Positions 3,385 to 33,836 of a stretch of 42,669 bases of DNA are shown here, one piece after another. The stretch lies in assembly GCA_026224875.1 (NCBI GenBank), contig JAMFRU010000041.1, forward strand, positions 1 to 42,669, given 5' to 3'. The position numbers were made by a program, and so were the translations under genes. Below the pieces are notes generated by a model. The model was given only the letters and a program-made list of their open reading frames with translations, was not told the DNA's origin and did not search any database. This stretch comes from Acidocella sp. (GTDB lineage: Bacteria; Pseudomonadota; Alphaproteobacteria; Acetobacterales; Acetobacteraceae). Position 1 is the first letter of the stretch. Each line of letters begins with the position of its first letter.

Positions 3385-4983
3385 CTATGCCGCGAGAGCG
3401 GCCTTGTTGCCCTTGATAAAATATGCCGCACGTTCACCGATCATGATGGCCGGCGCGTTCGTGTTTCCGGAGATCAATTTCGGCATGATGGATGTATCCG
3501 CAATCCGCAAACCATCCAGCCCGTGCACGCGCAGCGATGTGTCGACCACGGCCATCTCATCACTACCCATCCGGCAGGCGCCACTTGGGTGCAGCGCGCC
3601 TTGGGCGTTGGCCCAGATAAAATTCTCATAATCCTGGCGGGTCTTCAGTGGCTCGCGCGGCAGAAATATCCTGTCGACATATTTCTGTAGTGATTTTTGC
3701 CGCATGATTTCTTCGCCGAGTTTTACGCCTTCGACGAACACGCCGAGGTCATGCGGGTCGGAGAGATAATTCGGCGCGACCACGGGGGGAATATCAGGGT
3801 TGGCGCTGCGCAAGGCGACCGTGCCGCGTGAGCGCGGCCTGGTGTGGCAGATATTCAGCGTGCTGCCATTGCCGCTTGGTACCGTATCCAAGCCGATTTC
3901 AATGCCGGCACCGGGGAGAAAGTGAAATTGCAGATCCGGTAGCGGATCGCTCTTGTCGCCCCACCAGAAGGCGCCGCCCTCGCATACATTGGATGTGATT
4001 GGCCCATTACCGAACAGGGCATATTGCAAAGCGGCCGCGGCCTGCCAACGAAGTTTCTTGTATTTATCGTAGCTATACGGGCCGGTGAGTTCGTGGGTCA
4101 GGAACATATCCACATGGTCCTGCAAATTCTGACCGACGCCGGGCAGGTCATGCACCACGGGGATCTCGACCTCGCGCAGATGAGCGGCCGGGCCTATACC
4201 TGACAGCAACAGCAGGCGCGGCGAACCAATGGCGCCGGAGCAAATAATCACCTCGCGTTCCGCGCGTAAAGTTTTGGTGCGGCCCTTTTCCACATATTCC
4301 ACGCCCATGGCGCGGCCCGCTTCAACAATAATACGCAGAACCCGTTGACCGGTGCGGACCGAAAGATTTGCGCGCTGCCTTGCAGGTTTCAAATAGGCCG
4401 TGGCCGCGCTGCAGCGTTTGCCGTTTTTTACCGTCACCTGATACAGCCCGCAGCCGGCTTGCGTGCCGCTGTTGAAATCCGGGTTGAACGGCAAGCCGGC
4501 CTCCTGGCAGGCCTGCAGCCACGCCATGGTCAGCTGGCTGGTATGCAGCTGGTCCGATACACCAAGCGGGCCGCCGACGCCGTGGACATCATTAGAAAAT
4601 TTTGTGTTGTCTTCAGCATATTTGAAAAATGGTAGAACGTCCTTATAGCCCCAGCCGGGGCAGCCGAGGGCTTCCCAGCAGTTATAATCCTCGGGGCAGC
4701 CGCGGATATAGACCATCCCGTTCACCGAACTGCCGCCGCCCAGAACCTGACCCTGAACCATGGTCATTTCCTTGAGGCGGTTATCGGGGCCGGGAGTGAT
4801 GGTGAAGCGGTTCAGCAACGGCCCTTTGGCGGTTTTGTAATAGGCGACGGGTAGATGGATATACGGATTGGTATCGGCCGGCCCGGTTTCGAACAGGACG
4901 ACTTTGGAATCCCCATCTTCACTCAGGCGCCCGGCAATGGTGCAACCTGCGGAGCCGCCACCTACCACAATATAGTCAACCAT
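3385..4983 (-). CDS. GMC-family FAD oxidoreductase (choline/alcohol dehydrogenase-like)
   Basis: This complete 532-residue GMC oxidoreductase has the FAD motif GGGSAG at residues 8-13 and GGGSSVNGMVYIRG, the first GMC signature. The second signature contains GAIGSPRLLLLSGIGP. The catalytic pair is H465 in HPSGACRMG and N509 in SGNTNAP. It should oxidise a primary alcohol and pass electrons to quinone or oxygen. A GAGGT ribosome-binding site precedes the ATG. It follows the luciferase-like monooxygenase gene by 77 bases and precedes the HD gene by 15 bases. It is a diverged paralogue of the truncated copy at 14-1453; one may handle the alcohol and the other a related intermediate. Choline-type substrates are possible but not shown. 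Confidence 0.88.
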   Translation of the reverse strand: MVDYIVVGGGSAGCTIAGRLSEDGDSKVVLFETGPADTNPYIHLPVAYYKTAKGPLLNRFTITPGPDNRLKEMTMVQGQVLGGGSSVNGMVYIRGCPEDYNCWEALGCPGWGYKDVLPFFKYAEDNTKFSNDVHGVGGPLGVSDQLHTSQLTMAWLQACQEAGLPFNPDFNSGTQAGCGLYQVTVKNGKRCSAATAYLKPARQRANLSVRTGQRVLRIIVEAGRAMGVEYVEKGRTKTLRAEREVIICSGAIGSPRLLLLSGIGPAAHLREVEIPVVHDLPGVGQNLQDHVDMFLTHELTGPYSYDKYKKLRWQAAAALQYALFGNGPITSNVCEGGAFWWGDKSDPLPDLQFHFLPGAGIEIGLDTVPSGNGSTLNICHTRPRSRGTVALRSANPDIPPVVAPNYLSDPHDLGVFVEGVKLGEEIMRQKSLQKYVDRIFLPREPLKTRQDYENFIWANAQGALHPSGACRMGSDEMAVVDTSLRVHGLDGLRIADTSIMPKLISGNTNAPAIMIGERAAYFIKGNKAALAA

Positions 4984-5060: not shown

Positions 5061-6173
5061 CTATTCCGCTGCCTGCTTTGTTGCCTCTGCGCCGATTGCA
5101 GCATTCAGCGCTGGCATAACGTCTTTGGCCATTAATTCCATCGAGCGCTTCATCGCGGCCTTGTTTTGCCAATCATGTGCTGCCATCAGCAATGTGCCGA
5201 AATCCCCAGTTTTCTCACGGAAGGCCAGCAGCCGCTTTACCACTGTTTCGGGCGAGCCGTAGATGGTGAATTCGTCGCGCATTGTTTTATGCGTCAGCGC
5301 CGCGGGGTCATCCCCTTCATTGGCAACGATCAGGGCTTTGGTATTGCCCCGATCATAGACCCGCCAGAGATAGTCGTAATACCAGTCGAACACGCCGCTA
5401 TCCTGCTTCACGAATGCCTCTGCCTCGGCATCCGTATCAGCCACATGGATGCTGCGTGCGACATGCCAGATGGAGGGATCCGCCACGCGTCCGGCGGCCT
5501 TCGCGGCGGCCTCGTAAACCGGCCAATGCGTGGCCGCACTCCATTCAGCGATGAAATTCGCGGTAATCGGCATCCAGCCTTTCGCCGCGGCGATCTTCAT
5601 TGTGCTGGAGTACGGGCTGGCGGCTGAAATGGCGATCGGCGGGCCATCCTTTTGGAGCGGCTTGACGATACTGCCCAACCCGATATCGGGATAATAGTTG
5701 TTCTCGATTTTGGCCGACCAATATTTACCTTGCAAATCATATGGCGGCTCGGTGTTCCAGATGTTTTGAATCATCTCGACCGAATCGACGACCATATCGC
5801 CCCTGTTCATCTCCAGCGTGCCCATCAATTCGCAGTCAGACGCCAGCCCGCCTGGTCCGACACCGAAAATGAAGCGCCCGCCGCTGAGATGATCAAGGAA
5901 GGCGGCGTCAGAACCGATCATGGCCGGGTGATAATGCGGCACGCATGCGACGCCTGTCGCAAGTTTGATCTTGCTCGTGCGCGCGGCGAGATACGAGAGA
6001 AACATCATCGGCGAGGGGATTGGTTCAACGGAAGAGGTGTAATGTTCACCACACCAGAATTCTTCGAAGCCAAGCTCCTCCGCATAGAGGACTGCTTCGA
6101 TATCTTCGTGCAGCACCTCTTGATAGTCGCGTCCAAAATTATGCAGCGGCATCATGAACAAGCCGAGTTTCAT
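5061..6173 (-). CDS. Luciferase-like flavin monooxygenase (LLM class, LimB-like)
   Basis: This 370-residue member of the bacterial-luciferase TIM-barrel family uses FMNH2 or F420 supplied by a partner reductase. Family landmarks are the N-terminal strand MKLGLFMMP, EFWCGEHY near residue 40, the conserved block KLATGVACVPHYHPAMIGSD, and GRFIFGVGPGG. The overall pattern resembles the limonene-monooxygenase (LimB) and alkanal-monooxygenase branch rather than the RutA branch. It is the first gene of a five-gene minus-strand operon and lies about 70 bases downstream of a -24/-12 promoter. A GGAAGGT ribosome-binding site precedes the ATG by eight bases. It may hydroxylate the substrate to give the alcohol oxidised by the downstream GMC enzymes. 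No flavin reductase is encoded in the window. Confidence 0.87.
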   Translation of the reverse strand: MKLGLFMMPLHNFGRDYQEVLHEDIEAVLYAEELGFEEFWCGEHYTSSVEPIPSPMMFLSYLAARTSKIKLATGVACVPHYHPAMIGSDAAFLDHLSGGRFIFGVGPGGLASDCELMGTLEMNRGDMVVDSVEMIQNIWNTEPPYDLQGKYWSAKIENNYYPDIGLGSIVKPLQKDGPPIAISAASPYSSTMKIAAAKGWMPITANFIAEWSAATHWPVYEAAAKAAGRVADPSIWHVARSIHVADTDAEAEAFVKQDSGVFDWYYDYLWRVYDRGNTKALIVANEGDDPAALTHKTMRDEFTIYGSPETVVKRLLAFREKTGDFGTLLMAAHDWQNKAAMKRSMELMAKDVMPALNAAIGAEATKQAAE

Positions 6174-6242: not shown

Positions 6243-6258
6243 AGCAATATCCATGCCA
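6243..6258 (-). promoter_or_regulatory. Sigma-54 (-24/-12) promoter of the monooxygenase operon
   Basis: Read on the minus strand, the site is TGGCATGGATATTGCT. It matches the RpoN consensus TGGCAC-N5-TTGC(A/T) with one deviation (T for C in the -24 box), and the GG and GC pairs are exactly 12 bases apart. The predicted start is near 6230, giving a leader of about 57 bases before the ATG at 6173. Confidence 0.8.
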
Positions 6259-6297
6259 AGTTCTATGCCGTTGCGGCGTTCATGGTGGTGGAGGGAT

Positions 6298-6349
6298 AGG
6301 CTGCGGCACGTGTCGTTATGTCGCAGCCTCAAGTCGCATAGTTGAGATT
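6298..6349. promoter_or_regulatory. Inverted repeats upstream of the sigma-54 promoter, candidate activator site
   Basis: An 8-base inverted repeat, AGGCTGCG (6298-6305) and CGCAGCCT (6322-6329), is followed by CTCAA (6328-6332) and TTGAG (6342-6346). The octamer TTGAGATT (6342-6349) recurs upstream of the permease and porin promoters. The site is 40-100 bases upstream of the -24 box, where enhancer-binding proteins often bind. Assignment to the activator encoded at 9771 is inference. Confidence 0.35.
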
Positions 6350-6365
6350 TTATGATTGCCGCGCG

Positions 6366-6389
6366 GCATGAAGGAAAGGCCCTTCATGC
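6366..6389 (-). terminator. Hairpin after the lactone-oxidase-like gene
   Basis: The 9-base arms GCATGAAGG and CCTTCATGC enclose a six-base loop, just beyond the stop of the gene at 6396. There is no T-run on the minus strand, so this could be a rho-assisted terminator or an mRNA-stabilising hairpin that separates the gene from the next operon. Confidence 0.45.
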
Positions 6390-6395
6390 GTTTGT

Positions 6396-7655
6396 CTAGG
6401 CGAACAGCATCCGCAGATGATCGTTCAGGAAGACGCCTTGAGGATCGATTTCACGCCGGATTTTCCGGAACGCATCATAGCGCGGATAGAGCCGCTCTAG
6501 CCGCGCCGGCGACATGAAATGATGCTTGCCCCAATGCGGCCGGCCCTCATATTTATCGAATATCACGTCGATATCGTTCAGCATCCCCCAGGTGGGGAAT
6601 TCTAGCGGCCCTGAGACGGATATCGCGTAGCCATCGCGCTCGGCATAGGCACTCAGAAATGTCTCATCGGCTTTTACCGCGCGGCACTCCACGGGATACA
6701 TCGCTTCCGGGTACTTTGTTTTGAACAGGCTTCGGATTTCCTCAAAACATTCCTCAAATTTTTCAAACGGTACCGCATATTCAATCTCGCGGAAATTCGG
6801 CACGTATTGGTTGGGGAAGATCGCGGAACTATGGCCGAATTCCTCGCCCGTTTGCAATGGCGGCGCCGGCTCGTCGGCCGGTACCGCATTATAGCTGCGC
6901 ATATGGCAGAAGTCGTGCGCACGCGTTGCCATATTCGGCACATCGCCACCGGGTAATTCGAAGAGGCTGGCCGATTCCAGTACGGGCAGCCAGAAGAACC
7001 AGAATGTGCGGTTCTCATCCAGCAGGTGATGCAGCTTGCCGATGCAGTCCTCCGTATCTGCGTTCCACGAGCGTTTAAGAATATTATATGAGGGCACGGC
7101 CTGAATGGTGATGGAGACGATCAAGCCGAACATGCCCAGTGAGGTCTGGAATGCATTGAACAAAGTCTTGTCGTGCTCGGCCGATAAATCCAGGAATGTA
7201 CCGTCGGCCGTGACGATCCTCGCGGCAATCATCTGGTTGGACATGCAGGGCAGGGTTTTGCCTGCCCCATGCGTGCCCGTCATCAACGCGCCGGCCACGG
7301 CCTGCGTGTCGATATCGCCCTGATTATTGAGCGACATGCCGCGCCCCTTCAAATACCGGCTCAATTCACCGACACGTATACCCGGCTGAAACGTAACCTG
7401 AAGTTTTTCCTCATCCACGGCGATGATCTGGTTCATCGCGTTGAAATCCACATGCACGCCCGGCGTAGGCACGATGGCCGGGTTGGAATGCCCGGCACCG
7501 CTGGCGCGCAGCGGTAGGTTGAGCTTGCGTGCGGCGAGCACGATCTGGCGCACATCCTCCTCGGTTTTTGGCAGTGCTTTGTATTGCGGCACGAAATACT
7601 GCTCGCCGAACCAGTTCCACCAGAGTTTTCCTGGCTCCAATACACACTGCTCCAT
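6396..7655 (-). CDS. FAD-linked aldonolactone oxidase-like protein (ALO/GULO family)
   Basis: This 419-residue VAO-fold flavoprotein has an N-terminal FAD-binding (PCMH) domain and a C-terminal ALO domain. LRASGAGHS places H56 where the family usually attaches FAD covalently. GALMTGTHGAG is the pyrophosphate-binding block, and PHWGKHH near residue 380 is the HWGK motif typical of D-arabinono-, L-gulono- and L-galactono-lactone oxidases. Members oxidise sugar lactones or polyols at C2 or C1. A GGAGG ribosome-binding site precedes the ATG, and the gene has its own -24/-12 promoter, divergent from the aldehyde dehydrogenase promoter. In this regulon it may oxidise a polyol- or alcohol-like intermediate. 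True ascorbate-type activity is unlikely in a bacterium. Confidence 0.83.
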   Translation of the reverse strand: MEQCVLEPGKLWWNWFGEQYFVPQYKALPKTEEDVRQIVLAARKLNLPLRASGAGHSNPAIVPTPGVHVDFNAMNQIIAVDEEKLQVTFQPGIRVGELSRYLKGRGMSLNNQGDIDTQAVAGALMTGTHGAGKTLPCMSNQMIAARIVTADGTFLDLSAEHDKTLFNAFQTSLGMFGLIVSITIQAVPSYNILKRSWNADTEDCIGKLHHLLDENRTFWFFWLPVLESASLFELPGGDVPNMATRAHDFCHMRSYNAVPADEPAPPLQTGEEFGHSSAIFPNQYVPNFREIEYAVPFEKFEECFEEIRSLFKTKYPEAMYPVECRAVKADETFLSAYAERDGYAISVSGPLEFPTWGMLNDIDVIFDKYEGRPHWGKHHFMSPARLERLYPRYDAFRKIRREIDPQGVFLNDHLRMLFA

Positions 7656-7718
7656 GCGGTCTCCTCCAAATTGCGCCGGTATGTTCGCTGATCATGGCGC
7701 GTTAGTCTCCGGGAGCGC

Positions 7719-7734
7719 AGCAACAACCATGCCA
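7719..7734 (-). promoter_or_regulatory. Sigma-54 promoter of the lactone-oxidase-like gene
   Basis: The minus-strand sequence TGGCATGGTTGTTGCT fits the RpoN consensus with GG and GC 12 bases apart; the only deviation is T for C in the -24 box. The predicted start is near 7707, about 50 bases before the ATG at 7655. It lies back-to-back, 19 bases apart, with the plus-strand promoter at 7754. Confidence 0.78.
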
Positions 7735-7753
7735 AGAAAGCTTCACGGGAGTT

Positions 7754-7769
7754 TGGCACACTGCTTGCT
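7754..7769 (+). promoter_or_regulatory. Sigma-54 promoter of the aldehyde dehydrogenase-RidA operon
   Basis: TGGCACACTGCTTGCT matches the RpoN consensus at all main positions (TGGCAC, N5, TTGCT), with GG and GC 12 bases apart. The predicted start is near 7780, leaving a leader of about 78 bases before the chosen GTG at 7858. Confidence 0.85.
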
Positions 7770-7857
7770 GGAAGCACATCGTAGAGGTGACGGAGATATC
7801 TGCATATGCCTCTGCCGGCGCATTATGCTCGCGCCTAACCATGAAGGAGTTTTGAAG

Positions 7858-9342
7858 GTGACGGCAATTCAGGAAATCATCGCGCAGACAAGTGCTGGCA
7901 CCAAAAAAATGCTCATCGACGGCAAATGGGTGGAGTCGGCCAGCGGCGAGAGTTTTGTCACCATCAACCCTTCCATCGGCCAGGTGCTGGCGACAGTGGC
8001 GCTTGGTGGTGCAGAGGATATCGAGCGCGCGGTTGCGGCGGCGCGGCGTGCGTTCGATGGCAGCTGGCGGCAGGTGACGCCTTTCGAGCGCCAGAATATT
8101 CTGTTGAAATTCGCGGATCTGGTGGAGGAGAATTTCGAGACGCTTTGTCTTTATGATACGCTGGAAATGGGCGCGCCGATTACGCTGACACGCTCGCGTC
8201 GGCAGCGCGCGCTTGGCCTTATCCGGTATTATGCTGGCCTTGCCACGACCATTCAGGGCGACACGATCCAGAATTCGCTGCCAGGCGAATATTTCTCCTA
8301 CACGCTGAAGGAGCCTCTCGGCGTGGTCGGGGCCATCTTGCCCTGGAACGCGCCGACCACCTCGACACTCTGGAAGTTGCTGCCGGTGATTGCCACGGGT
8401 TGCACCATGGTGCTCAAACCCTCGGAGCTTGCCGTGCTCACCCCGCTGTTTCTGGGGGAGCTGCTGCTGCAGGCAGGACTGCCGCCCGGTGTTGTGAATA
8501 TCGTGCCCGGCCATGGTGCGGTGGCAGGTGCCGCGCTTGCGGCCCATATGGATGTGGACAAAATTGCCTTTACCGGCTCCACTTTTACGGGCCGGAAGAT
8601 CATCGAGGCGTCGAAGGGTAATATCAAGCGCGTGACGGTCGAGCTCGGTGGAAAATCCCCCGATATCATTTTCGCGGATGCTGATCTCGATGCCGCGGTG
8701 CCAGGTGCCGCCATGGCGGCATTTGGCAATTCCGGGCAGATTTGCAGCGCCGGCACCAGGCTGCTGGTGCAGCGCCCGGTATATGATGAATTCGTCGCGC
8801 GCGTGGCCGATTTTGCCGCGGCGCTGCGGCTTGGCAATGCCACGGATGTTGAGACCCAGATTGGCCCGCTGGTCTCACAAACCCAGCTGGACCGCGTTAC
8901 CAATTATCTGGAAATCGGCAAAGGTGAGGGCGCGCGCATGGCTGTCGGCGGCGCGCGCGCGATTGAAGGCGCGCTCGCCGATGGCTATTTCGTCAAACCC
9001 ACGGTGCTTGCCAATGTCGATAATAATATGCGGATCGCACGGGAAGAAATTTTCGGCCCGGTCGTCTCGGCGATTCCGTTCGATGACGTCGATGATGCCA
9101 CGCTGATTGCCAACGCCACCAGTTATGGCCTCGGCGGTGGCGTTTGGACGCGCGATGTCGGCAAGGCGCATCGCGCGGCAAAAGCCATTCGTGCCGGCAC
9201 GGTCTGGGTGAACTGCTACGCCGTCATGGACCCGGCGATCCCGTTCGGCGGCTTCAAAATGAGCGGCTACGGTCGGGAGAGCGGCATCGAGCATATTGCC
9301 CAATATCTTGAGACTAAATCAGTTATCGTGAAGATTGACTGA
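7858..9342 (+). CDS. NAD(P)-dependent aldehyde dehydrogenase
   Basis: This 494-residue aldehyde dehydrogenase oxidises an aldehyde to the acid. From the chosen start, N164 (PWNAP), E262 (VELGGKSPD) and C296 (GQICSAG) are the classical catalytic residues, and the C-terminal PFGGFKMSGYGRE block is intact. The frame stays open far upstream to 7423, but that stretch overlaps the divergent gene and the promoter. I chose GTG 7858 because AAGGAG (7844-7849) lies eight bases before it and the resulting length is typical. ATG 7825 is an alternative. It is co-transcribed with the RidA gene. It is the natural next step after the GMC alcohol oxidases; betaine-aldehyde or aminoaldehyde substrates are possible but unproven. 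Confidence 0.9.
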   Translation: MTAIQEIIAQTSAGTKKMLIDGKWVESASGESFVTINPSIGQVLATVALGGAEDIERAVAAARRAFDGSWRQVTPFERQNILLKFADLVEENFETLCLYDTLEMGAPITLTRSRRQRALGLIRYYAGLATTIQGDTIQNSLPGEYFSYTLKEPLGVVGAILPWNAPTTSTLWKLLPVIATGCTMVLKPSELAVLTPLFLGELLLQAGLPPGVVNIVPGHGAVAGAALAAHMDVDKIAFTGSTFTGRKIIEASKGNIKRVTVELGGKSPDIIFADADLDAAVPGAAMAAFGNSGQICSAGTRLLVQRPVYDEFVARVADFAAALRLGNATDVETQIGPLVSQTQLDRVTNYLEIGKGEGARMAVGGARAIEGALADGYFVKPTVLANVDNNMRIAREEIFGPVVSAIPFDDVDDATLIANATSYGLGGGVWTRDVGKAHRAAKAIRAGTVWVNCYAVMDPAIPFGGFKMSGYGRESGIEHIAQYLETKSVIVKID

Positions 9343-9408
9343 ACTGGTCTCGCCGCGAATCTCAACAATCTCACGCATGAGACTTTCTCACCGAATGGGA
9401 GTGATGCC

Positions 9409-9753
9409 TTGATAAAAAATTATGAGTCCAATGGGCGCTTTTCGCGCCTCGTCACCGCGGGTGGCTTTGCCTTTCTCTCCGGCGTGACAGCCCGTAACCG
9501 TGATGCGGGCATTGCGGCGCAGACGGAAAACGTGCTGGCGCAGATTGATGCCTATCTTGAGAAGGCAGCCTCGCATAAAGACAAAATGGTCAGCGTCAAT
9601 ATCTGGCTGAAGGATATCGCTGATATTGGAGCCATGAACGAGGTTTGGATGGCATGGATAACGCCGGGCCACGAGCCGGCGCGCGCCACTGTTGAATCCC
9701 GTCTCGCGACGCCGGACCTGTTGGTCGAAATCATGGTGCAGGCCATGATCTGA
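9409..9753 (+). CDS. RidA/YjgF-family protein (imine deaminase type), TTG start
   Basis: This 114-residue RidA-fold protein hydrolyses reactive imines and enamines, or acts as a specific deaminase in a pathway. LSGVTA near residue 24, the PARATVESRLATPDLLVEI block and the final VQAMI strand fit the family; the Arg of PAR is the usual carboxylate-binding residue. No ATG is in frame. TTG 9409 is preceded by GGGAG (9397-9401) at good spacing, and the ATG at 9404 leads only to a stop. It follows the aldehyde dehydrogenase by 66 bases in the same operon. It probably clears the imine made by the DAO-family enzyme of this regulon. The intergenic gap contains two AATCTCA repeats (9358-9373). Confidence 0.85.
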   Translation: MIKNYESNGRFSRLVTAGGFAFLSGVTARNRDAGIAAQTENVLAQIDAYLEKAASHKDKMVSVNIWLKDIADIGAMNEVWMAWITPGHEPARATVESRLATPDLLVEIMVQAMI

Positions 9754-9770
9754 CCGCGGCGCCGGAGCGG

Positions 9771-11753
9771 CTACCGGCCGCGCTGTGAGGTCTTGATGCC
9801 GTGCAAGCGTAGCTTGCGATAGAGTGTGGCGCGGCTGATTCCGAGCTGCCGCGCCACAAGGTCGATATCGCCTTTGAGTGCGCCCATCGTCTCTTCCAGC
9901 ACCTCGCGCTCGGCGCGCGCCACGATTTCTTTTGCTCCACGCCCCTTGGCCCCAGCGGGATGAGCAGCGGGCACTCCTGTATTCATCCGCATGGGGGCCA
10001 TCGCCATTGGGGGGGACTTTTGTGGAAGCATTAAATCTTCCAGCTCGATCACATGGGATTCCGCGAGCTTGGCGGCGCGTTGCAATACATGCCGCAATTC
10101 GCGAACATTGCCCGGCCAGCTATAGGCGCGCATCGCCTGCATTGCCGCGGCGGAAACGATGAAGCGCCGGGCGCCGGCGGTATTTTCGAGCAGTTGCCGC
10201 ACCAGCTGCTCCAGGTCACCGCGCTCGCGCAACGGCGGCAGAGTGAGCACCAGCCCGGCGAGCCGGTGATACAGATCCTGGCGGAAGCGCCCGTCGGCGA
10301 TGCGAACTTCCAGCTCCTGATTCGTCGCTGCGATGATCCTGATATCCGCATATTGCACGCGCCCGCTGCCAAGCGGCGTGACCTCGCCGGTTTCCAACAC
10401 GCGCAGCAATCGTGTCTGCAAAGTAACCGGCATATCGCCGATCTCATCCAGAAACAGCGTTCCGCCATCGGCAGCTTTTACGCGGCCGATATGCCCGTCC
10501 TTTTTCGCGCCGGTGAAGGCGCCCGCGCCATAGCCGAATAATTCACTGTCAATGAGTGATTCCGGTATGGCCGCACAGTTGAAGACGACGAACGGGCCGG
10601 ATGCGCGGTCGCTCTCGGTATGGATCGCGCGGGCAAGCGTGTCCTTGCCGACGCCGGTTTCGCCCAGCAGCAGCACAGGCAAATTGGCTCCACGCAGGCG
10701 ACGCAGAAGTTTGACATGGGCTTGCATGCGCATGTCCTGGCCGGCACAGGCATCCAGCCCCGGTGTGGCGGGCGAGGCCGCCACGGGCTTGGCCGTGCGG
10801 GGTGCTGGCTTTAGCAAGGCCGGTGGCGCGTAGCCCTTTTCCACAATATTGGGCGCCGTTACCCGTGCCTGCAGCGTATGGTCGCTGCCGAGCCGCTTCA
10901 GAATGACCGGCGCTTCATCGCCTTGCGCCAGAATTTTCGGCGTCCGCTCAAAATGGTCCCAGAGCGAGGTGGCCGCACCTGGCTGCAGTGCCAGGGCCTG
11001 GCCTGCCATGCGGTTAAAACCGAGTATCTCCTCATCCGCGCCCAGGGCCAGGAGTGCGGCGGGCCCTTCAGCCGTGTTCAATCGCACCACGAGTGCTCCG
11101 TTATGGCGGGCATAGAAAAATTTCTCTTCGAGGCGTTGCACTGAAACGCGTGCAACATCGTAAATCAGCCGGTGCGTCTGTTCCGACAGCCGCTCATTGC
11201 GGATGGACAGGTTGATGGCACCGAGGATCTGTCCATCCACATCGAATACCGGCATGCCAATGCAGGCGACATGGATAAGGTCCGAGAAAAAATGATCGTC
11301 ATGATACACGGCGACCGGCCGGCGTTCTAGCAGTGCGGTTCCGATGCCATTCGTGCCGCATTCCGGCTCGGACCAGCGCGTGCCGGGGCGGTCCGGCGGA
11401 AAATAGGTTTCGCTATTATAATCCGAGCGCTCCAGCACCACGAGCCCGGTATGGTCCGCCAGGCTCACGCTGTAGCCGCTGCCGCGCACGGCGAGGAAGA
11501 GATTATCCAGCTCGTCGCGCGCCATATTGAGCTCGCGCCCCATCATCTCCTTATGCTGGCGCAGCTCCGGCGAGCTGAGCGTCTGCGGGTCGCATTTGCG
11601 CGATGGATCGAGCCCGTGTTCATCGAAGCAGCGCTGCCAGGAGGAAATGCCGGGACGCCAGAGTTTCCACTCCGGCCGCTCGTACTCCTTGAACAGGAGC
11701 GGATTTTGCACGATCGACGTGATACGAGAGATATGTGCCGACGACCCATGCAT
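9771..11753 (-). CDS. Sigma-54-dependent transcriptional activator, AcoR type (GAF, AAA+, Fis)
   Basis: This 660-residue enhancer-binding protein has an N-terminal sensory region with a GAF-like domain (about residues 80-210; CGTNGIGTAL and AINLSI resemble AcoR). The sigma-54 AAA+ domain has Walker A GETGVGK at 364-370, the sigma-54-contacting loop GAFTGA at 411-416, and Walker B GGTLFLDEIGD at 430-440. A Fis-type helix-turn-helix lies at the C-terminus (ARQLGISRATLYRKL). The intact GAFTGA means it can activate RpoN polymerase. I chose the second ATG (11753) because AAGGGG precedes it at seven bases; the ATG at 11771 has no ribosome-binding site. It is the only such regulator in the window and is surrounded by five RpoN-type promoters, so it is the likely master activator. 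It probably senses the substrate through its GAF domain. Confidence 0.93.
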   Translation of the reverse strand: MHGSSAHISRITSIVQNPLLFKEYERPEWKLWRPGISSWQRCFDEHGLDPSRKCDPQTLSSPELRQHKEMMGRELNMARDELDNLFLAVRGSGYSVSLADHTGLVVLERSDYNSETYFPPDRPGTRWSEPECGTNGIGTALLERRPVAVYHDDHFFSDLIHVACIGMPVFDVDGQILGAINLSIRNERLSEQTHRLIYDVARVSVQRLEEKFFYARHNGALVVRLNTAEGPAALLALGADEEILGFNRMAGQALALQPGAATSLWDHFERTPKILAQGDEAPVILKRLGSDHTLQARVTAPNIVEKGYAPPALLKPAPRTAKPVAASPATPGLDACAGQDMRMQAHVKLLRRLRGANLPVLLLGETGVGKDTLARAIHTESDRASGPFVVFNCAAIPESLIDSELFGYGAGAFTGAKKDGHIGRVKAADGGTLFLDEIGDMPVTLQTRLLRVLETGEVTPLGSGRVQYADIRIIAATNQELEVRIADGRFRQDLYHRLAGLVLTLPPLRERGDLEQLVRQLLENTAGARRFIVSAAAMQAMRAYSWPGNVRELRHVLQRAAKLAESHVIELEDLMLPQKSPPMAMAPMRMNTGVPAAHPAGAKGRGAKEIVARAEREVLEETMGALKGDIDLVARQLGISRATLYRKLRLHGIKTSQRGR

Positions 11754-12279
11754 GACTAAACCCCTTATCATTCAAGAAGCTGGTCAAAACCCTGCCGCGT
11801 GCATATCCCCGAGAATTTTCCGGACGGGTTTCAACCCTGCCCGTCTGATAATTGCCGTAAATGGCAACGCTACGTGAGTTTCCGGGAAATCTCCAGCGGT
11901 TTCTTCGCGAATTCTGCAGTTAAACGACAATCTATATAAGTATACGCCGTTCAGGGCTGTGTGGTTACCGCTGCGCCGGCGCGTTGCGCTATAGGGTTGC
12001 CGGTACTGGCGCGGGCACAACTTACGCTCGTGCAGGGCGGCACTTGTGTCAATGCGTCTCATATCTGTGATTCTCCCGGCCTGCCTTTGAGATTTTGCAG
12101 CTAACCAAGCACCGGTTGTGTTTGGGGGCGGATGTTAGATTTTCTAAGGAGCCGAAGGCCGGCCTGCTGCTTCTCAGCGAGGCAGATTTTAAGAAATTTT
12201 AAAAGCCATAATGATATTTCAAGAAAAATTCCGATAGGCAGGTCATTTTCGGATGATTTTTAGTGCACGCCTCCAGGAG
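11754..12279. other. Long divergent regulatory region between activator and permease
   Basis: This non-coding stretch of about 525 bases separates the activator gene from the permease promoter. It holds the octamer TTGAGATT (12087-12094), shared with other promoters of this regulon, and an AT-rich segment with the partial inverted repeat TTTTAAGAAATTTTAAAA (about 12187-12204). The AT-rich part may bend DNA between an upstream activator site and the -24/-12 promoter. I found no clear -35/-10 promoter for the activator gene and no RNA gene. Confidence 0.4.
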
Positions 12280-12295
12280 TGGCACGGGGTTTGCT
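12280..12295 (+). promoter_or_regulatory. Sigma-54 promoter of the APC permease gene
   Basis: TGGCACGGGGTTTGCT is a complete match to the RpoN consensus TGGCACG-N4-TTGC(A/T), with GG at 12281 and GC at 12293. Predicted transcription starts near 12305, 33 bases before the permease ATG. Confidence 0.9.
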
Positions 12296-12337
12296 TTTGT
12301 TGATGCAAATCCCTCGTAATTAACCTGGAGACTAGCG

Positions 12338-13876
12338 ATGACCGATCGAACAGAAGACGAAATCCTTCGGCACGACACTGAGACCTTGCATAAATTTGGT
12401 TATGCGCAGGAACTGTCTCGCCGCATGTCGGGCTTTGGCAATTTTGCTTTGTCCTTTATGATTATTGGTTTGTTCTGGGCGTGTTGTGTGAATGTGCAGC
12501 AGGGCATCAGTACCGCCGGCATGTTCGGCGTTAGCGTTGTCTTCTTTGTTGGCTGCATCATCGCGGTGGCGACCTCTGCCGCGCTTGGTGAGATCAGCTC
12601 CGCCATTCCCACCGCCGGCGGATTGTACCATTGGTCTTCGGCGTTGGGCGGCCGCGGCTGGGGCTGGGCGACGGCCTGGATCAACCTTCTCGCCTATACC
12701 TTCTCCATCGCCGGCACGGCCGTTGCCACCTATCTGCTGTTCAATCAGATGCTGCTTGGCTGGGTGTTGCATATCGACACGTCGGGTTGGGGCTATTGGC
12801 AGCAGGTGCTTGGCGTTTCGATCATCATCGGCAGCCAGGCTTTGCTGAACCATGTTGGCGTTCGCACCCTGGCGCGCCTTGGCGAGTTTGGTGCCTATCT
12901 TACATTCGTAGGCGCGGTGCTGCTGGTCGCCATCATGCTCTATAATATACACCCGGCGAATATTTCGCATATTATAATGTACACGAACAATACCGGCGAT
13001 GCCGGCGGCGGCCAGGTACCGCATACCAATAACCCGGTGCTGGTGTTCGGCTATGCGCTGCTGCTGCCGCTCTGGATCATTACATCCTACGACGCTTCGG
13101 CGCATACTTCGGAAGAAACGAAGGATGCGACGCGCGCGGTGCCGCGGGCGATGCTCAACTCCGTGCTGCTCTCCTCGGTCATGGGGCTGGTGATCCTCAC
13201 CGTGATCGGCCTTGCCATGGCGGACCAGCCGGCTGTCGCCAAGCAGGCGGGCAATGCATTTGCCACTTTGTTTGGCCAGATCACCGCACCCACCATCGTC
13301 AAGGATTTCATTTCGGTTGCAATGGTGCTGGCCTCCTACATCTGCGGCGCTTGCGGTCTCACGGGCTACTCCCGCGCGATCTTCGCCTTCGCACGCGACA
13401 AGGGCCTGCCTAGCTTCCTGCGTCACGTCTCGCATAAATTCCGTACACCCGCACCGGCTATCTGGCTTGCGGCGGTTGTTAGTGTCGGGGCGACGCTTTA
13501 CTCATCGGCTTTCGCCGCCCTCACCGCCGGCACGGCGCTGTTCTATCAGCTCTCCTACGCCATGGCGATCGGCGCGGCCCTTCTGTCGAGCAAGCGCACA
13601 TATGGCCCGTTCCGGCTTGGTGTCTGGTCCAAGCCGCTCGCAATCATCTCCATTGCCGGTGCGGTGTTCATTATCTGGGTTGGGTTGCAGCCGCCTACCC
13701 AGATATTGGAAAGCTATTTCATTGGCATCGTGGGGCTTCTCTTGGTCGGCTGGTTCGCGATCGAGCGCCGGCGCTTCCCCGGCCCGCCGCTTGGCGATCT
13801 GGCTATCAAGGCCCGCATGCACGAGATCGAGCTGGAAGAGGTCGCGATTGGCGAGGTGGCGGCGGCCGGCGAGTAA
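12338..13876 (+). CDS. APC-superfamily amino acid/amine permease (ACT family)
   Basis: This 512-residue inner-membrane permease has about 12 hydrophobic segments. The N-terminal block HKFGYAQELSRRMSGFGNFA followed by a first membrane segment, and the SAIPTAGGLYHW block, are typical of the amino acid/choline transporter family (GABA, choline, ethanolamine and polyamine permeases). It therefore imports a cationic or zwitterionic amine or amino acid by H+ or Na+ symport. TGGAG lies seven bases before the ATG, and a near-perfect -24/-12 promoter lies 43 bases upstream. A strong intrinsic terminator follows. It is probably the uptake system for the substrate of the oxidoreductases controlled by the same activator. 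The exact substrate cannot be told from sequence. Confidence 0.88.
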   Translation: MTDRTEDEILRHDTETLHKFGYAQELSRRMSGFGNFALSFMIIGLFWACCVNVQQGISTAGMFGVSVVFFVGCIIAVATSAALGEISSAIPTAGGLYHWSSALGGRGWGWATAWINLLAYTFSIAGTAVATYLLFNQMLLGWVLHIDTSGWGYWQQVLGVSIIIGSQALLNHVGVRTLARLGEFGAYLTFVGAVLLVAIMLYNIHPANISHIIMYTNNTGDAGGGQVPHTNNPVLVFGYALLLPLWIITSYDASAHTSEETKDATRAVPRAMLNSVLLSSVMGLVILTVIGLAMADQPAVAKQAGNAFATLFGQITAPTIVKDFISVAMVLASYICGACGLTGYSRAIFAFARDKGLPSFLRHVSHKFRTPAPAIWLAAVVSVGATLYSSAFAALTAGTALFYQLSYAMAIGAALLSSKRTYGPFRLGVWSKPLAIISIAGAVFIIWVGLQPPTQILESYFIGIVGLLLVGWFAIERRRFPGPPLGDLAIKARMHEIELEEVAIGEVAAAGE

Positions 13877-13912
13877 AATTTGCCAGCCGATCCGTTCCTT
13901 TAGAATTTATAT

Positions 13913-14374
13913 TTACAAGGTCCGCTCTGCGGGCCTTGTTTTTTGCGAGCAGCGCTGGCGGCGCCAGATGGCCGTTTGCAAAATGAATTTGAGGTTGAGA
14001 TTGGCCTCCATGGCTTCCACCCCGCCTTCGGAGCCGTAGCCCGAATCCTTGATGCCGCCGAATGGTGTTTCCGGCAGAGACAGGCCGAGGTGGTTGATCG
14101 TCAGCATGCCAGTCTCCAGCCGCTGCCCCAGCGCAGTTGCGGTGGCGGCCGAGCGTGTCCAGGCATAGGCGGCAAACCCGTAGGGGAGGCGGTTTGCCTC
14201 GGCAATCGCCTCGTCGAACTCCCGGAAGGGGATCATGAGCGCCAGCGGGCCGAAGGGCTCTTCCTGCATCATGCGCATTTCGGTTGTCAGCCCAGTGATC
14301 ACCGTGGCTTCATAGAAGCTGCCGGCATTGGCCGGGCGCCGACCGCCAGTGGCCACATTTGCCCCCTTGGCCAT
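13913..14374 (-). pseudogene. C-terminal fragment of an aldehyde dehydrogenase
   Basis: About 150 residues match only the last third of an aldehyde dehydrogenase of the succinate-semialdehyde/glycolaldehyde type. AKGANVATGG, MQEEPFGPLA with the conserved Glu, and PFGGIKDSGYGSEGG are recognisable. The NAD-binding domain and the catalytic Cys and Glu are absent. Upstream of the first ATG (14374) the frame reads unrelated residues. The 3' end runs into the permease terminator, giving a non-homologous tail. It is a deletion remnant with no expected activity, and its codon use resembles its neighbours. The rearrangement joined it to the porin's upstream region. Confidence 0.8.
13915..13944 (+). 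terminator. Rho-independent terminator after the permease
   Basis: The stem ACAAGGTCCGC, loop TCT and GCGGGCCTTGT (one T-G wobble) run into six T residues about 40 bases after the permease stop. It overlaps the 3' end of the opposing aldehyde dehydrogenase remnant. Confidence 0.85.
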
Positions 14375-14627
14375 CGATGAAAAGTGCTGTGTCTTTATAG
14401 TCCATAGGAATCCCCAAAATACAATTTACGCGAGCATCGCTTTGACTCTTCATAGAGTCGCAAGGCCGTGTTTCTCAGCCTGTAAACGTAAGCCGTGTGC
14501 CAACGTGCCGCATATTCTGCGGCAACAATCTCAATCTCAAAATATTTTCCGCGAAACTGCGACGAGACGAGGTTGAGATTCACCTGCGCAATTTAGAAAG
14601 ATAAAGCAGCTTTCTGGGTTTTTTGTT
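14375..14627. promoter_or_regulatory. Repeat-rich region upstream of the porin promoter
   Basis: This stretch carries small inverted repeats (GACTC/GAGTC around 14441-14459; CCGCA/TGCGG around 14509-14523). It also has two overlapping AATCTCAA copies (14527-14540) and an inverted copy TTGAGATT at 14573-14580, 48 bases before the -24 box. The last three form an inverted arrangement that may be the upstream activator site for the sigma-54 promoter. A 62-codon minus-strand frame (14583-14395) also lies here; I do not recognise it and doubt that it is a gene. Confidence 0.4.
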
Positions 14628-14643
14628 TGGCATGGGAGTTGCT
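14628..14643 (+). promoter_or_regulatory. Sigma-54 promoter of the porin gene
   Basis: TGGCATGGGAGTTGCT fits the RpoN consensus with GG and GC 12 bases apart and the same CAT variant of the -24 box seen at 6243 and 7719. The predicted start is near 14655, about 88 bases before the porin ATG. Confidence 0.8.
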
Positions 14644-14742: not shown

Positions 14743-15930
14743 ATGAAAAGACTAGTGATGATACGTTTTGGGGGTCTCAGCTTGATGGCACTCTCTATTG
14801 CCGCCGTGGGTATGGGCGGCAAGGCAAAAGCCTTGACGGCACCGCCAGAAATCAAAATAGATGGCGGCCCGCTGGGGCAGCTTGAACTTTCCGGCGGCAT
14901 GAGCGGCTATTTCGATTTCGCCAGTGGCACGGCAGATAGTTCCGCAACACCCGGCAGTTTCAGCGGGATCAGCCCGGCCAATGCCAATCTCGACAGCCTG
15001 CTGGTTGAGCTGCAGAAAACGACGGGCGTTCTGCAATATACCATCGAGGTCGGGCCCTATAACGGCACACCGGCTCTCGGCGGCCCGCCCGCCAAGGCGA
15101 CAACCAATTTCTTCCGCACCGGCCCGCTCTACTTTGGCTATATCACGATTGCGCCACCGGATTCGCCAGTGACCATATCGGCTGGTCAGCTCTCATCGCT
15201 TGAAGGTTACGAAGCTGGTCCGAGCTGGCTGAACGCCAATCTCTACACCTCCGAATTATGGTATGTCCAAAACTCCAATAGCGTCGGTGTCTCCGCCAAT
15301 TACACTCATGGGCCGGTCAGTGTGACGGTCACCTATGGCGATGGCTGGGACACGCGTGTGTTCAATTTCCTGCAGGCCCTCGGCACCTATAGTTTCAGCA
15401 GCAATAATGCGCTGAGCCTGTATTATGCCGGCAATCTCGGCCGCACCGGCGCTGATGCGTCCACCTATAATCAATCATCGGTTGGGTTCGGCAATAACTA
15501 CGTCAACTCGCAAATGTACGGCGCGTTCTATAGTTTTACCGCCGGCAATCTGAATTTGGTGCCTGAAGTGCAATATGTCTACGCCAAGGTCGATCATCAG
15601 GCCGGGGTAGACAAATTCACCAGCAATTTCGGAGCACTCGTGCTGGGCGATTATACTTTTGGTTCCTCACCCTATTCGCTGGGCGGCATGGCTGAGTATT
15701 TTACCAGTAATGGTCCCAGCACCTGGTTCATCGCCCCGCATGCCGAGGCCGTTGGTTTTGAGCTGAGCCCAACCTGGCAGTATAAGAACATTTTCTTCCG
15801 GGCGTCCGCCACTTATCTGCATATGCTGAATGGCAGCTATGCCGGTGACGGTACGACCGGCGCCTATGGCGGTGACGGCCATGGCAAGGATTCGGCGGAA
15901 CTGGGTCTCGAAGCTGGTCTTCTGCTTTAA
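14743..15930 (+). CDS. Outer-membrane beta-barrel porin (OmpL-like, porin-2 family)
   Basis: This 395-residue protein starts with a Sec signal peptide (MKRL, a hydrophobic core, and predicted cleavage after AKA near residue 30). The mature part is rich in Gly, Ser, Asn and aromatic residues in alternating strands, for example LYFGYITIAPP and NALSLYYAGN, typical of the OmpL-like beta-barrel (porin-2) family. It should admit small solutes through the outer membrane. The frame is open upstream to a TTG at 14623, but that would place the promoter inside the gene; ATG 14743 has AAGGGAAGG just before it and begins a proper signal peptide. It shares its promoter class with the permease and oxidoreductases, so it likely serves the same substrate. 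Confidence 0.85.
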   Translation: MKRLVMIRFGGLSLMALSIAAVGMGGKAKALTAPPEIKIDGGPLGQLELSGGMSGYFDFASGTADSSATPGSFSGISPANANLDSLLVELQKTTGVLQYTIEVGPYNGTPALGGPPAKATTNFFRTGPLYFGYITIAPPDSPVTISAGQLSSLEGYEAGPSWLNANLYTSELWYVQNSNSVGVSANYTHGPVSVTVTYGDGWDTRVFNFLQALGTYSFSSNNALSLYYAGNLGRTGADASTYNQSSVGFGNNYVNSQMYGAFYSFTAGNLNLVPEVQYVYAKVDHQAGVDKFTSNFGALVLGDYTFGSSPYSLGGMAEYFTSNGPSTWFIAPHAEAVGFELSPTWQYKNIFFRASATYLHMLNGSYAGDGTTGAYGGDGHGKDSAELGLEAGLLL

Positions 15931-15943: not shown

Positions 15944-15972
15944 TGCCGGAAGCCAAAGCTTCCGGCATTTTT
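15944..15972 (+). terminator. Rho-independent terminator after the porin
   Basis: TGCCGGAAG, loop CCAAAG, CTTCCGGCA and five T residues form an ideal intrinsic terminator 14 bases after the porin stop. On the other strand the same stem follows the convergent flavoenzyme gene and may act in both directions. Confidence 0.9.
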
Positions 15973-17240
15973 CATGCGGCGGAGGCGACAGGCAATTTGG
16001 CCGCAGGCAGGGTTGCCGCCAGCCGGTCGGCGATGATCTCGGCGGTTGCGGCCGACATTGTCCAGCCGAGATGGCCATGCCCGCTGTTGTAGAAAATGCC
16101 TGGCATGCTGCCGCTTGCAACGCGCGGCAGCATGTTTGGCATCATCGGGCGCAGCCCGGCCCAAGGCACGACATTGTCGGTCTCTACATGCGGAAACAGG
16201 CGGCGGCTCCATTCCACCAGCAGCCTGATGCGGTCGGCCCTTATATCGCGATTCTCGCCGCGGAATTCAGCGGTTCCGGCGACGCGGAGCCGGTTCGCCC
16301 CCAGCCGGCTGGTCACGATCTTGGCCTTATCATCAAGCAGGCTGACCCACGGCGCTGCATTCTTGCTGGCGGCACTGTCGAGCTGCACGGTGATGGAATA
16401 GCCTTTGACCGGGTAGATGTTGACGCGATCGCCAACCATCGCCGCCAGGCGCCTGGTGCCGACACCGGCACAGATGATTGTGGCGTCGAAATTCGCACTC
16501 TCCCTGTGGCTGGTCGCGCGGTTCTGCCCTTGGGTCCAGACGATCGTTACCCCGCCGCCAACCTTGCTGGAGATATCCTCAACCACGGCATCGCTGATAA
16601 AAACCATGCCGAGGCGCGTGGCGACGTCGCTCAGCCCGCGGGTGAATTTATGGATATCGCCGGTTGCATCGGAAGGCGTAAAAAACCCGCCATAGAATTG
16701 CCCGTTCAGCGCCGGCTCGATCGCGGAGATTTCCGTTGGCGTTACGGGATGACGGTCCAGGCCGCCCTCCTTGAGCATCTTGCTCACCCGGGCGGCATGC
16801 TCAAAACTCGGTCTGTCGTAATACACATGCAAAATGCCGCGCTTCTCGAGATTGAACTCGATGTCCTCGCGCGCGGCGATTTCGAAGAGGTGCTCGCGGG
16901 CAGTCAGGGCAAGCCGGACGGTTTCAATTGTATTGGCGTGGTAGCGCGGAATCTGCCCGATGAACTCACCCATCCAGGTGGTTTTGTGCCAGCTGGGCGC
17001 GGGGTGAACGAGCAAGGGGGCGTCCTTGCGCAGCATCCATTTCAGCCCCTTGATGATTGTTGAGCTATGGTTCCAGACTTCCGCATTGCTGACGGAGAGC
17101 TGACCGCCGTTGGCGAATGACGTTTCCATGGCCGGATAGGCATGGCGCTCGAACACCGTGACGCGGTAGCCGCGTTTGAGCAAAGCGTAGGCAGTGGTGA
17201 TGCCGGTAATGCCGGCACCGATAACCGTGATATGAGACAT
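15972..17240 (-). CDS. DadA-like FAD-dependent D-amino acid/glycine dehydrogenase
   Basis: This 422-residue DAO-family flavoprotein is close to DadA. It has the FAD motif VIGAGITGITTAYAL at residues 5-19, the DadA-type loop ETSFANGGQLS, WMLRKDAPL, and C-terminal GHGHLGWTMS. DadA enzymes oxidise D-amino acids to 2-oxo acids, feeding electrons to quinones. The frame extends 22 codons upstream, but ATG 17240 has GAGGT six bases before it and starts directly with the Rossmann strand; the longer form would run into riboswitch sequence. The leader is a tandem glycine riboswitch, so expression should rise with glycine. The likely substrate is glycine itself or a glycine-related amine; that assignment is inference. 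Confidence 0.87.
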   Translation of the reverse strand: MSHITVIGAGITGITTAYALLKRGYRVTVFERHAYPAMETSFANGGQLSVSNAEVWNHSSTIIKGLKWMLRKDAPLLVHPAPSWHKTTWMGEFIGQIPRYHANTIETVRLALTAREHLFEIAAREDIEFNLEKRGILHVYYDRPSFEHAARVSKMLKEGGLDRHPVTPTEISAIEPALNGQFYGGFFTPSDATGDIHKFTRGLSDVATRLGMVFISDAVVEDISSKVGGGVTIVWTQGQNRATSHRESANFDATIICAGVGTRRLAAMVGDRVNIYPVKGYSITVQLDSAASKNAAPWVSLLDDKAKIVTSRLGANRLRVAGTAEFRGENRDIRADRIRLLVEWSRRLFPHVETDNVVPWAGLRPMMPNMLPRVASGSMPGIFYNSGHGHLGWTMSAATAEIIADRLAATLPAAKLPVASAA

Positions 17241-17300
17241 AGGGTGACCTCTTCGTCCGAAGTGTTGCGCATGCCTGGCTGTGACACCGGGCTGTTCGTT

Positions 17301-17487
17301 CCCCATCTGTCCTTGGTACCTGAGAGCTTACCCGGCATGTCCAGGCTTCCCCTTCGGTGGATGCCAGGCCGGAGCCTGCCATCTCTCTCCAGATTGTCCA
17401 GCAGCACGGTCCTGGTGCCTGAGAGTTTCCTGGGGGTTGCTCCTTCGGCGCCGGTCATACGTCCCCGGTCTCTCCCGAGCTGCTGTT
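17301..17487 (-). ncRNA. Tandem glycine riboswitch (two aptamers)
   Basis: On the minus strand, aptamer 1 shows GGGAGAG (about 17476-17470), GCCGAAGGAGC (17449-17439) and CTCTCAGGCACCAGGAC (17425-17409). Its closing stem pairs CAGCAGC (17486-17480) with GCTGCTG (about 17405-17399). Aptamer 2 shows GGAGAGAG (about 17390), ACCGAAGGGGAAGCC (about 17360-17346) and CTCTCAGGTACCAAGGACAG (17326-17307). These are the conserved boxes of the gcvT-type glycine riboswitch in its two-aptamer form. It lies 60 bases before the ATG of the DadA-like gene. I see no T-run terminator in the platform, so control may act at translation initiation. Confidence 0.93.
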
Positions 17488-17537
17488 TGACGCGTTTTGC
17501 TAAGCAAATACCGTGCCCTGGCCGCGGTGGCGTAGGC

Positions 17538-22519: not shown

Positions 22520-22649
22520 CAGCCTGTACCCAAATAGATGTTTTTGTGGGCAATGCTTATTGGGGCAATGTTTATCTGGGCTTGTGACAGTTTCATGGCG
22601 GGTGCCTGATTAATCCTTTCGGGAGAGGCGGGGAAATGAAGCTTTCGCG

Positions 22650-28591: not shown

Positions 28592-28629
28592 AGCAGCCGA
28601 ACCGAAGCTGAAGTTGGAGTACAGACGCC

Positions 28630-33819: not shown

Positions 33820-33836
33820 ACATCGCTTGGGGTGGT

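Follow-up and report, generated by a model that had tools for sequence, protein, structure and literature searches.

We found that contig JAMFRU010000041.1 of Acidocella sp. (assembly GCA_026224875.1), whose 42,669 bases are called the window here, carries five -24/-12 promoters of the sigma-54 (RpoN) type around the gene of one AcoR/DhaR-like activator. We judge it likely that the window holds a genuine sigma-54 regulon, in which this activator would drive genes of uptake and oxidation. The promoters, the enrichment of an upstream half-site, the gene order, the activator clade, the conservation of the gene set and a glycine riboswitch can all be read in the sequence. Tentatively, and with confidence somewhat short of even, we further propose a mostly plasmid-borne alphaproteobacterial pathway for a hydroxylated amine or N-substituted glycine, with its own activator clade and a TCTCA-N4-TGAGA enhancer; in the window, the divergent promoters of the lactone/alditol-oxidase-like (ALO) and aldehyde dehydrogenase (ALDH) genes would depend on enhancers lying some 1.4 and 1.6 kb off on either side, one of them in the gap between ALDH and RidA.

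Promoters and activator of the window

The preliminary description of this DNA had named five -24/-12 sites, and scanning the window with TGGCAYN5TTGCT recovered each of them, at the same position and on the same strand, and no further exact match. The sites have the GG-N10-GC form of sigma-54 promoters and precede the LLM-GMC2-HD-DAO1-GMC1 genes (TGGCATGGATATTGCT, 6243-6258, minus strand), ALO (TGGCATGGTTGTTGCT, 7719-7734, minus strand), ALDH and RidA, which share one (TGGCACACTGCTTGCT, 7754-7769, plus strand), an APC family permease (TGGCACGGGGTTTGCT, 12280-12295, plus strand) and a porin (TGGCATGGGAGTTGCT, 14628-14643, plus strand); ALO, APC and the porin each have a site of their own. All five are intergenic and, as had been described, correctly oriented, while the distance to the gene start, previously put at 43-115 bases, measures 42-99 bases: 69 for LLM, 63 for ALO, 42 for APC, 99 for the porin and, for ALDH, 82 to TTG 7852 or 88 to GTG 7858. 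The pattern was defined post hoc, once the sites were known; its type matches the published consensus TTGGCATNNNNNTTGCT (PMC6615313). In 100 dinucleotide-preserving shuffles of the window the mean was 0.10 matches (the chance figure calculated earlier for equal base use was 0.04) and the largest count 2, none of the 100 shuffles reaching 5. We therefore take the five sites to be real. In the whole genome (3,866,373 bases in 145 contigs), TGGCAYN5TTGCW has 24 matches against 6 for the backward pattern, and the window, with 1.1% of the bases, yet holds 5 of the 24.

The activator gene (9771-11771, minus strand) encodes 666 residues with a GAF domain, a sigma-54 AAA+ domain containing GAFTGA and a Fis-type HTH. 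This layout defines an AcoR/DhaR-type activator. Against the curated DhaR model PRK11388 the protein scores 251.2 where the cut-off is 551, and it is therefore called AcoR/DhaR-like, not DhaR. It is the only sigma-54 activator on the contig, its GAFTGA is present and its gene lies among the sites, just as the preliminary description had it. The genome has seven matches over the cut-off of PF00158, four of them strong, and a single rpoN match, on contig C101.

A related cassette and a predicted enhancer

We then compared the window with six related loci. Searching with ALO gave Ancylobacter polymorphus plasmid pB (L172), Agrobacterium vitis plasmids (L173; a second strain, L174, was not counted) and G130, a genome from the window's own family (L180); searching with LLM gave Agrobacterium larrymoorei (L185), Agrobacterium cucumeris (L186) and Mesorhizobium loti (L187). 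The cassette genes in these relatives are an LLM monooxygenase, GMC, DAO, ALDH and RidA enzymes, a transporter and an activator. Identities to the window proteins in L180 are 72% for APC, 60% for DAO1, 51% for LLM, 71% for ALO, 66% for ALDH and 39% for the activator; in L172, 66% for ALDH, 48% for RidA, 60% for GMC1, 57% for DAO1, 52% for LLM, 72% for ALO and 42% for the activator; and in L173, 56% for DAO1, 41% for the activator, 50% for LLM, 69% for ALO and 66% for ALDH. In L185 they are 36% for DAO1, 62% for GMC2, 50% for RidA, 61% for ALDH, 40% for the activator and 44% for LLM; in L186, 65% for DAO2, 43% for LLM, 64% for GMC2, 40% for RidA and 42% for the activator; and in L187, 42% for RidA, 63% for DAO2, 43% for LLM, 63% for GMC2, 41% for the activator and 34% for ALDH.

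A -24/-12 site precedes the LLM gene in all six relatives, and hence in seven of seven loci with the window. The co-occurrence of gene set and promoters in related genomes, which had been suggested as a check, is thus borne out. Over the 165,661 bases of the six loci, TGGCA[CT]N5TTGC[ATC] gave 18 matches at gap 5; the remaining gaps (0-11) gave 0-3 each, the backward pattern gave 1 and letter-permuted patterns averaged 0.52 (maximum 6). For 16 of the 18, a gene start, annotated or assigned by homology, follows at 31-116 bases in the right orientation; this does not hold for L172 10320, which falls within an annotated LysR gene, or for L185 6896. The LLM sites end in TTGCT (L185, L186 and L187), TTGCC (L172) or TTGCG (L173 18797 and L180 11518); L180 lacks the strict pattern and has three near-consensus sites. 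The annotated LLM start of L187 lies upstream of site 9773, and the homologous start 10001, which agrees with the annotation of locus L223, was used. Transporter genes have a site of their own in five of the six relatives (L172, L173, L180, L185 and L187), off-consensus in L180 (CGGCAC...TTGCC) and degenerate in L187 (TGGCACGGTTCGTGCA); the promoter of the G130 APC gene reads CGGCACGGTGTTTGCC. The transporter genes of L186 lie downstream of LLM in the same direction. ALDH/SSADH genes are likewise preceded by sites in L172 (ending TTGCG), L186 and L187.

Nine further LLM loci (L222-L229 and L188, L229 being a near-copy of L225) stood outside the motif definition; the LLM plasmid records numbered 19, with H18, H21, H26 and H30 left out. 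A promoter and half-sites precede LLM in four of the nine: Ensifer (L222), Mesorhizobium WSM4875 (L223), Agrobacterium pusense (L224) and Agrobacterium leguminum (L226). The activators of L223 and L226 carry GAFTGA and GSFTGA; the L224 activator is cut, and the one of L222 lies outside the stretch. No LLM site was found in L188, L225 and L229, whose activators lack GAFTGA, nor in L227 and L228, where no sigma-54 activator is annotated in the stretch shown. The loci thus split by activator type: the four whose activator matches, or probably does, are positive and the other five negative; the lack of GAFTGA in L225 and L229 was recognised only after the site scan. In the six activator-bearing further loci (without L229), the strict pattern has 8 matches at gap 5, one of these (L223 14000) inside the activator gene, and 2, 0, 0, 1, 0 and 0 at gaps 2, 3, 4, 6, 7 and 8.

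An activator tree was built from 11 cluster rows, without L229, and 12 other homologues of the window's family, chosen on sequence alone. Nine cassette activators with GAFTGA or GSFTGA, the window's among them, form one clade with support of 100/100, and a Phaeobacter-type pair falls outside it.

We next investigated the region 20-230 bases upstream of the promoters. In the relatives, these regions of 19 cassette promoters merge into 16 stretches with 3,581 bases in total, where GTCTCA/TGAGAC ranks first among the 6-mers, with 24 occurrences against 1.2 expected (Poisson 4e-23, uncorrected for about 2,000 6-mers). Inverted pairs favour TCTCA-N4-TGAGA, with 7 cases in the window and the six relatives, whereas the remaining spacings (0-20) have 0-3 each. 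The core TCTCA/TGAGA, taken from the relatives, occurs 8 times in the five upstream regions of the window against 1.06 expected (P 1.5e-5): once at LLM, three times at APC, four times at the porin and not at ALO or ALDH. The whole window has TTGAGATT 7 times, against a mean of 0.79 in 200 simulations (maximum 5); five copies lie upstream of LLM, APC and the porin, one in the ALDH-RidA gap and one inside an ALDH remnant. Predicted half-sites are TTGAGATT at 6342-6349, which reads AATCTCAA towards the LLM promoter, AATCTCAA at 9358-9365 in the ALDH-RidA gap, TTGAGATT at 12087-12094 upstream of APC, and two AATCTCAA and one TTGAGATT within 14527-14580 upstream of the porin. A full predicted dyad, TCTCACGCATGAGA, stands at 9369-9382, one of four places in the genome with TCTCAN4TGAGA.

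Elsewhere in the genome, TTGAGA, TCTCAA, TGAGAC or GTCTCA lies 20-230 bases upstream of two of the other 19 promoter matches. One, on contig C7, has a GMC gene 329 bases on, and the other, C128:57373, stands before an NMT1-like binding protein gene (Pfam). A third match among the 19, on C101, precedes rpoN itself. Sites on C128 and C134 precede genes of ABC substrate-binding proteins, that on C134 as judged from sequence, which hints that sigma-54 may also control other uptake systems in this genome.

Gene content, candidate pathway and alternatives

The LLM, GMC2, HD, DAO1 and GMC1 genes lie on the minus strand with successive gaps of 77, 15, -1 and 24 bases and are read as one operon behind the site at 6243. 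LLM (5061-6173, 370 residues, PF00296) is a luciferase-like flavin monooxygenase; its best solved relative is 3,6-diketocamphane 1,6-monooxygenase (E 2.8e-39), and it scores below the cut-off of every family among those shown (25 of 28 listed). GMC2 (3385-4983, 532 residues) is, by family scans, a choline-dehydrogenase-like GMC oxidoreductase with 62-64% copies in L185, L186 and L187, and reaches 484.7 bits with the choline dehydrogenase (BetA) model TIGR01810, whose cut-off is 732.1. HD (2755-3369, 204 residues) is a distant relative of the PhnZ/TmpB oxygenases, with 44.9, 32.6 and 30.8 bits for TIGR03276, NF052439 and NF049941 (cut-offs 214.6, 300 and 300). DAO1 (1478-2755, 425 residues) is assigned by family scans as an FAD-dependent amine/amino-acid oxidoreductase with 56-60% copies in L172, L173 and L180. 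GMC1 (14-1453), a second GMC oxidoreductase by family scan, resembles its Ancylobacter copy up to residue 444, at about window position 121, and window positions 1-127 (about 127 bases) recur at 15 further places of the genome, most of which are contig ends. Either GMC1 is thus interrupted by a multicopy repeat, which may be an insertion element, or this is where the assembly breaks.

ALO (6396-7655, minus strand, 419 residues), an FAD-linked oxidoreductase, is 69-72% identical to its copies in L172, L173 and L180 and scores 293.8 bits with TIGR01679, barely above the cut-off of 292.25. The closer form of the cassette, with ALO, is rare: of 200 family genomes, two have a close ALO copy, namely that of the window and G130 (71%), with three further matches at 40-42%, and among 385 genomes of the class (E<=1e-110; G130 not in the draw) the window itself is the only match. 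ALDH (7852-9342, plus strand, from TTG 7852 or GTG 7858) has 66% copies in the same three relatives; its best matches include betaine-aldehyde dehydrogenase, below the cut-off. It is followed by a RidA family protein (9409-9753, plus strand, 114 residues, PF01042), which stays below the NCBIfam cut-offs. The APC family amino-acid/amine permease (12338-13876, plus strand, 512 residues) has a 72% copy in the G130 cassette, and the porin (14743-15930, plus strand, 395 residues, PF07642) is of the BBP2/OmpL-like beta-barrel kind. Between these two, at 13913-14405 on the minus strand, is an apparent remnant of a succinate-semialdehyde-type ALDH, whose C-terminal part covers profile positions 320-448 of 448; the frame of a possible start at 14405 differs from that of this part. 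It stands behind an off-consensus -24/-12 site (14487-14502, minus strand) and has half-sites in common with the porin promoter.

Next to the porin, DAO2 (15972-17306, minus strand, likely true start near 17240) is an enzyme of the D-amino-acid-dehydrogenase type, scoring 689.1 bits with PRK12409 (cut-off 494). A glycine riboswitch aptamer precedes it at 17397-17487, minus strand (RF00504, 70.4 bits, gathering score 32). DAO2 copies of 63-65% adjoin LLM in L186 and L187, also with the riboswitch, which further precedes a DAO2 relative at a separate place in G130 (L181). At E<=1e-120, DAO2 is found in 22 of 200 family genomes, and the riboswitch at 17 of the 20 DAO2 loci scanned, the window's included, which suggests that DAO2 acts on glycine. 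Since a close ALO is confined, within the family, to the window's genome and G130, DAO2 is a general, probably glycine-responsive unit that adjoins this pathway in some genomes. Malate synthase G lies downstream of DAO2 in L187 and L223, a position consistent with a route from glycine through glyoxylate to malate. A promoter candidate for DAO2 at 17503-17518 (minus strand, GGGCACGGTATTTGCT) was rejected: it is one base off the pattern, has no half-sites and is separated from the gene by the riboswitch. DAO2 is a neighbour and probably not sigma-54-driven.

From this gene content we infer how the activator may bind and activate, how the genes may be induced, each reaction step and the substrate class. 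The N-terminal half of the activator would sense a small molecule; the protein would then bind TCTCA/TGAGA, ideally as TCTCA-N4-TGAGA, and drive RpoN polymerase at the -24/-12 promoters of the LLM-GMC-HD-DAO operon, ALO, the ALDH-RidA operon, the permease and the porin. Permease and porin would import the substrate, in which GMC and then ALDH would convert a hydroxyl group through the aldehyde to the acid; DAO1 would oxidise a C-N bond, RidA would hydrolyse the resulting imine, and one flavin-dependent oxygenation would fall to the LLM enzyme. The chain of GMC, ALDH, DAO1 and RidA would turn an amino alcohol into an N-substituted glycine and release glycine, which DAO2 could burn to glyoxylate. 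The most likely class of substrate is a hydroxylated amine, or amino alcohol, which these steps would leave as an N-substituted glycine. L172 and L173 have ABC importers of polyamine type, whose permeases score best with polyamine models, where the window has the APC permease. Distant bacteria of soil and plants carry a similar gene set behind the same kind of promoter, and the set is therefore probably a real pathway for a small amine, not a chance grouping.

Several observations weigh against this regulon and pathway. The half-sites of the window are mostly TTGAGATT, whereas those of the relatives are TGAGAC, and the only full dyad of the window lies in the ALDH-RidA gap, where no promoter match adjoins it. 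Within 20-230 bases upstream, three of the five window promoters have a predicted half-site and those of ALO and ALDH have none. The enhancers of some relatives are weak, with one half-site each at L172 23644 and L187 799, and two half-sites at L186 8222 lie in or next to the glycine riboswitch of a neighbouring gene, to which they probably belong. About 800 bases separate L185 6896 from the start annotated for ALDH. In tblastn, cassette activators are 39-42% and others of the family 35-39% identical to the window's, and in a profile-type search the two ranges overlap (37-42%); with ranges so nearly equal, identity alone hardly separates the cassette activators, which the tree does, and picking relatives by activator similarity alone was dropped as uninformative. 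The riboswitch-DAO2 unit is widespread in the family and need not belong to the cassette. No flavin reductase is found among the open reading frames annotated around the window cassette, and one is present in the cluster of four of five named relatives.

In the 11 loci searched with the window proteins, HD had no relative. HD was also tried as an anchor gene for the pathway in 91 stretches with HD homologues (42-67% identity; E<=1e-10, at least 40% query coverage; at least two contigs appear twice, L067/L079 and L069/L087). These contained no relatives of LLM, ALO, DAO1, GMC1, RidA, the activator, APC or the porin; GMC2-like matches (47% and 36%, in L141 and L154) and one like the ALDH remnant (36%, L127) do not adjoin HD. 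The anchor was dropped. Clustering of the HD neighbours gave 2-oxoglutarate-oxygenase-like proteins in 8 and 6 loci, labelled from sequence reading alone. The earlier view of a single system is well supported by conservation, with the reservations that half-sites are present at three of five promoters, that HD had no relative in the 11 loci and that GMC1 runs into the repeat.

ALO and ALDH are the weakest links of the regulon. Alternatively, the sites might be true while some, chiefly these two, answer to another activator, for example of NtrC type, so that the genes would not form one regulon. The four strong activator genes of the genome and the two promoters without a nearby half-site favour this; as ALO and ALDH share a cluster with LLM in L172, L173 and L180, and the SSADH promoters of L186 and L187 carry half-sites, we think it unlikely. 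Sigma-54 enhancers can act over distances of 1.4-1.6 kb. As a hypothesis, the dyad and the LLM-side site may serve the ALO/ALDH pair over such a distance from either side.

A second alternative concerns the substrate, which could be a sugar-amine conjugate (such as an Amadori or mannityl-type opine) whose polyol would be oxidised by the ALO-like and GMC enzymes and whose C-N bond would be cut by DAO. ALO does resemble sugar-lactone and alditol oxidases, several cassettes are on Agrobacterium plasmids and a galactonate-dehydratase-like gene (below cut-off) lies near the L186 cassette, but ALO was not found in the L185, L186 and L187 stretches, and we rate this no higher than the separate-activator explanation. 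An aminophosphonate as substrate, with HD as a PhnZ/TmpB-type oxygenase, is less probable still. HD is distantly related to both enzymes, and TIGR03329, a putative aminophosphonate oxidoreductase family, is the nearest model for the DAO proteins of L186 and L187, but these scores fall far below the cut-offs (44.9 against 214.6 for HD; 317.1 and 308.3 against 632.8 for the DAOs), no phnW-, phnX- or phnA-like genes appear among the proteins scanned, no search by name having been made, and the importer permeases of L172 and L173 fit polyamine models best. Finally, an artefact of chance or composition, which the late statement of the pattern might suggest, is hardly credible against the shuffles, the spacing and letter-permutation controls in the relatives and the further loci. 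A hydroxylated amine handled by one sigma-54 regulon thus remains our preferred reading.

Other parts of the window hold further gene groups. A second catabolic cluster (31953-41003) has a RutD-like hydrolase, a RutA-like LLM monooxygenase and an ABC transporter, all below cut-off; the binding protein of the latter is nearest a BMP-type B6 family, and LysR- and AraC-like regulators were read from translations. An apparent type II secretion-like cluster, seen from translations only (18768-26606 and 30070-30804), includes pseudopilin-, secretin-, ATPase-, inner-membrane- and prepilin-peptidase-like open reading frames. Positions 26918-30030 encode a phospholipase C/acid-phosphatase-like protein and then a MauG/MbnH-like di-haem protein (below cut-offs).

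Significance and comparison with known systems

A related gene set is found in eleven loci: the window, the six relatives and four further loci. Scattered flavoenzyme genes become one testable unit with a predicted activator site and a few candidate classes of substrate. Should the substrate come to light, the rule of activator clade, enhancer dyad and -24/-12 site would help annotate plasmid clusters of Agrobacterium, Ensifer, Mesorhizobium and Ancylobacter, and the ALO/ALDH pair would offer a natural case for long-range sigma-54 enhancers.

The nitrilotriacetate and trigonelline pathways are two-component LLM monooxygenase pathways. The cassette shares with such pathways, including that of diketocamphane, a luciferase-like monooxygenase and, in the clusters of four of five named relatives, a flavin reductase; it differs in that the window LLM is below the family cut-offs and is joined by GMC, DAO and RidA genes. 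A sigma-54 catabolic regulon is in itself an ordinary kind of system; the literature searched, with partial coverage, holds no paper on this gene set and thus no description of this conserved cassette. A luciferase-like monooxygenase and a flavin reductase with the consecutive tags MCHK_4854 and MCHK_4853 are tabulated, in the part of the source available, without a pathway (PMC3973600).

The FAD enzymes PbfB, PbfC and PbfD serve in aminophosphonate catabolism, and N-methylated amines are substrates of some of them; like the DAO proteins they are PF01266 oxidoreductases encoded in catabolic clusters (PMC10590968); unlike there, genes of the AEP pathway were not met here, and scores with the related family are far below the cut-off. 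In Bacillus thuringiensis, sigma-54 and the activator SoxR run genes of FAD-dependent C-N oxidation for sarcosine utilisation, an arrangement similar to that proposed here, in another organism and, in the sections available, with no mention of LLM, GMC, ALO or RidA (PMC4941409). A parallel in regulatory design comes from the reconstructed sigma-54 regulons of Clostridiales, which have one activator per pathway (AcoR, DhaR, AguQ and others). These belong to a different phylum, and no pathway with the present gene set was found in the part of that work consulted, but they resemble the window in having one enhancer-binding protein per set of operons, the consensus TTGGCATNNNNNTTGCT and activator-specific sites upstream (PMC6615313).

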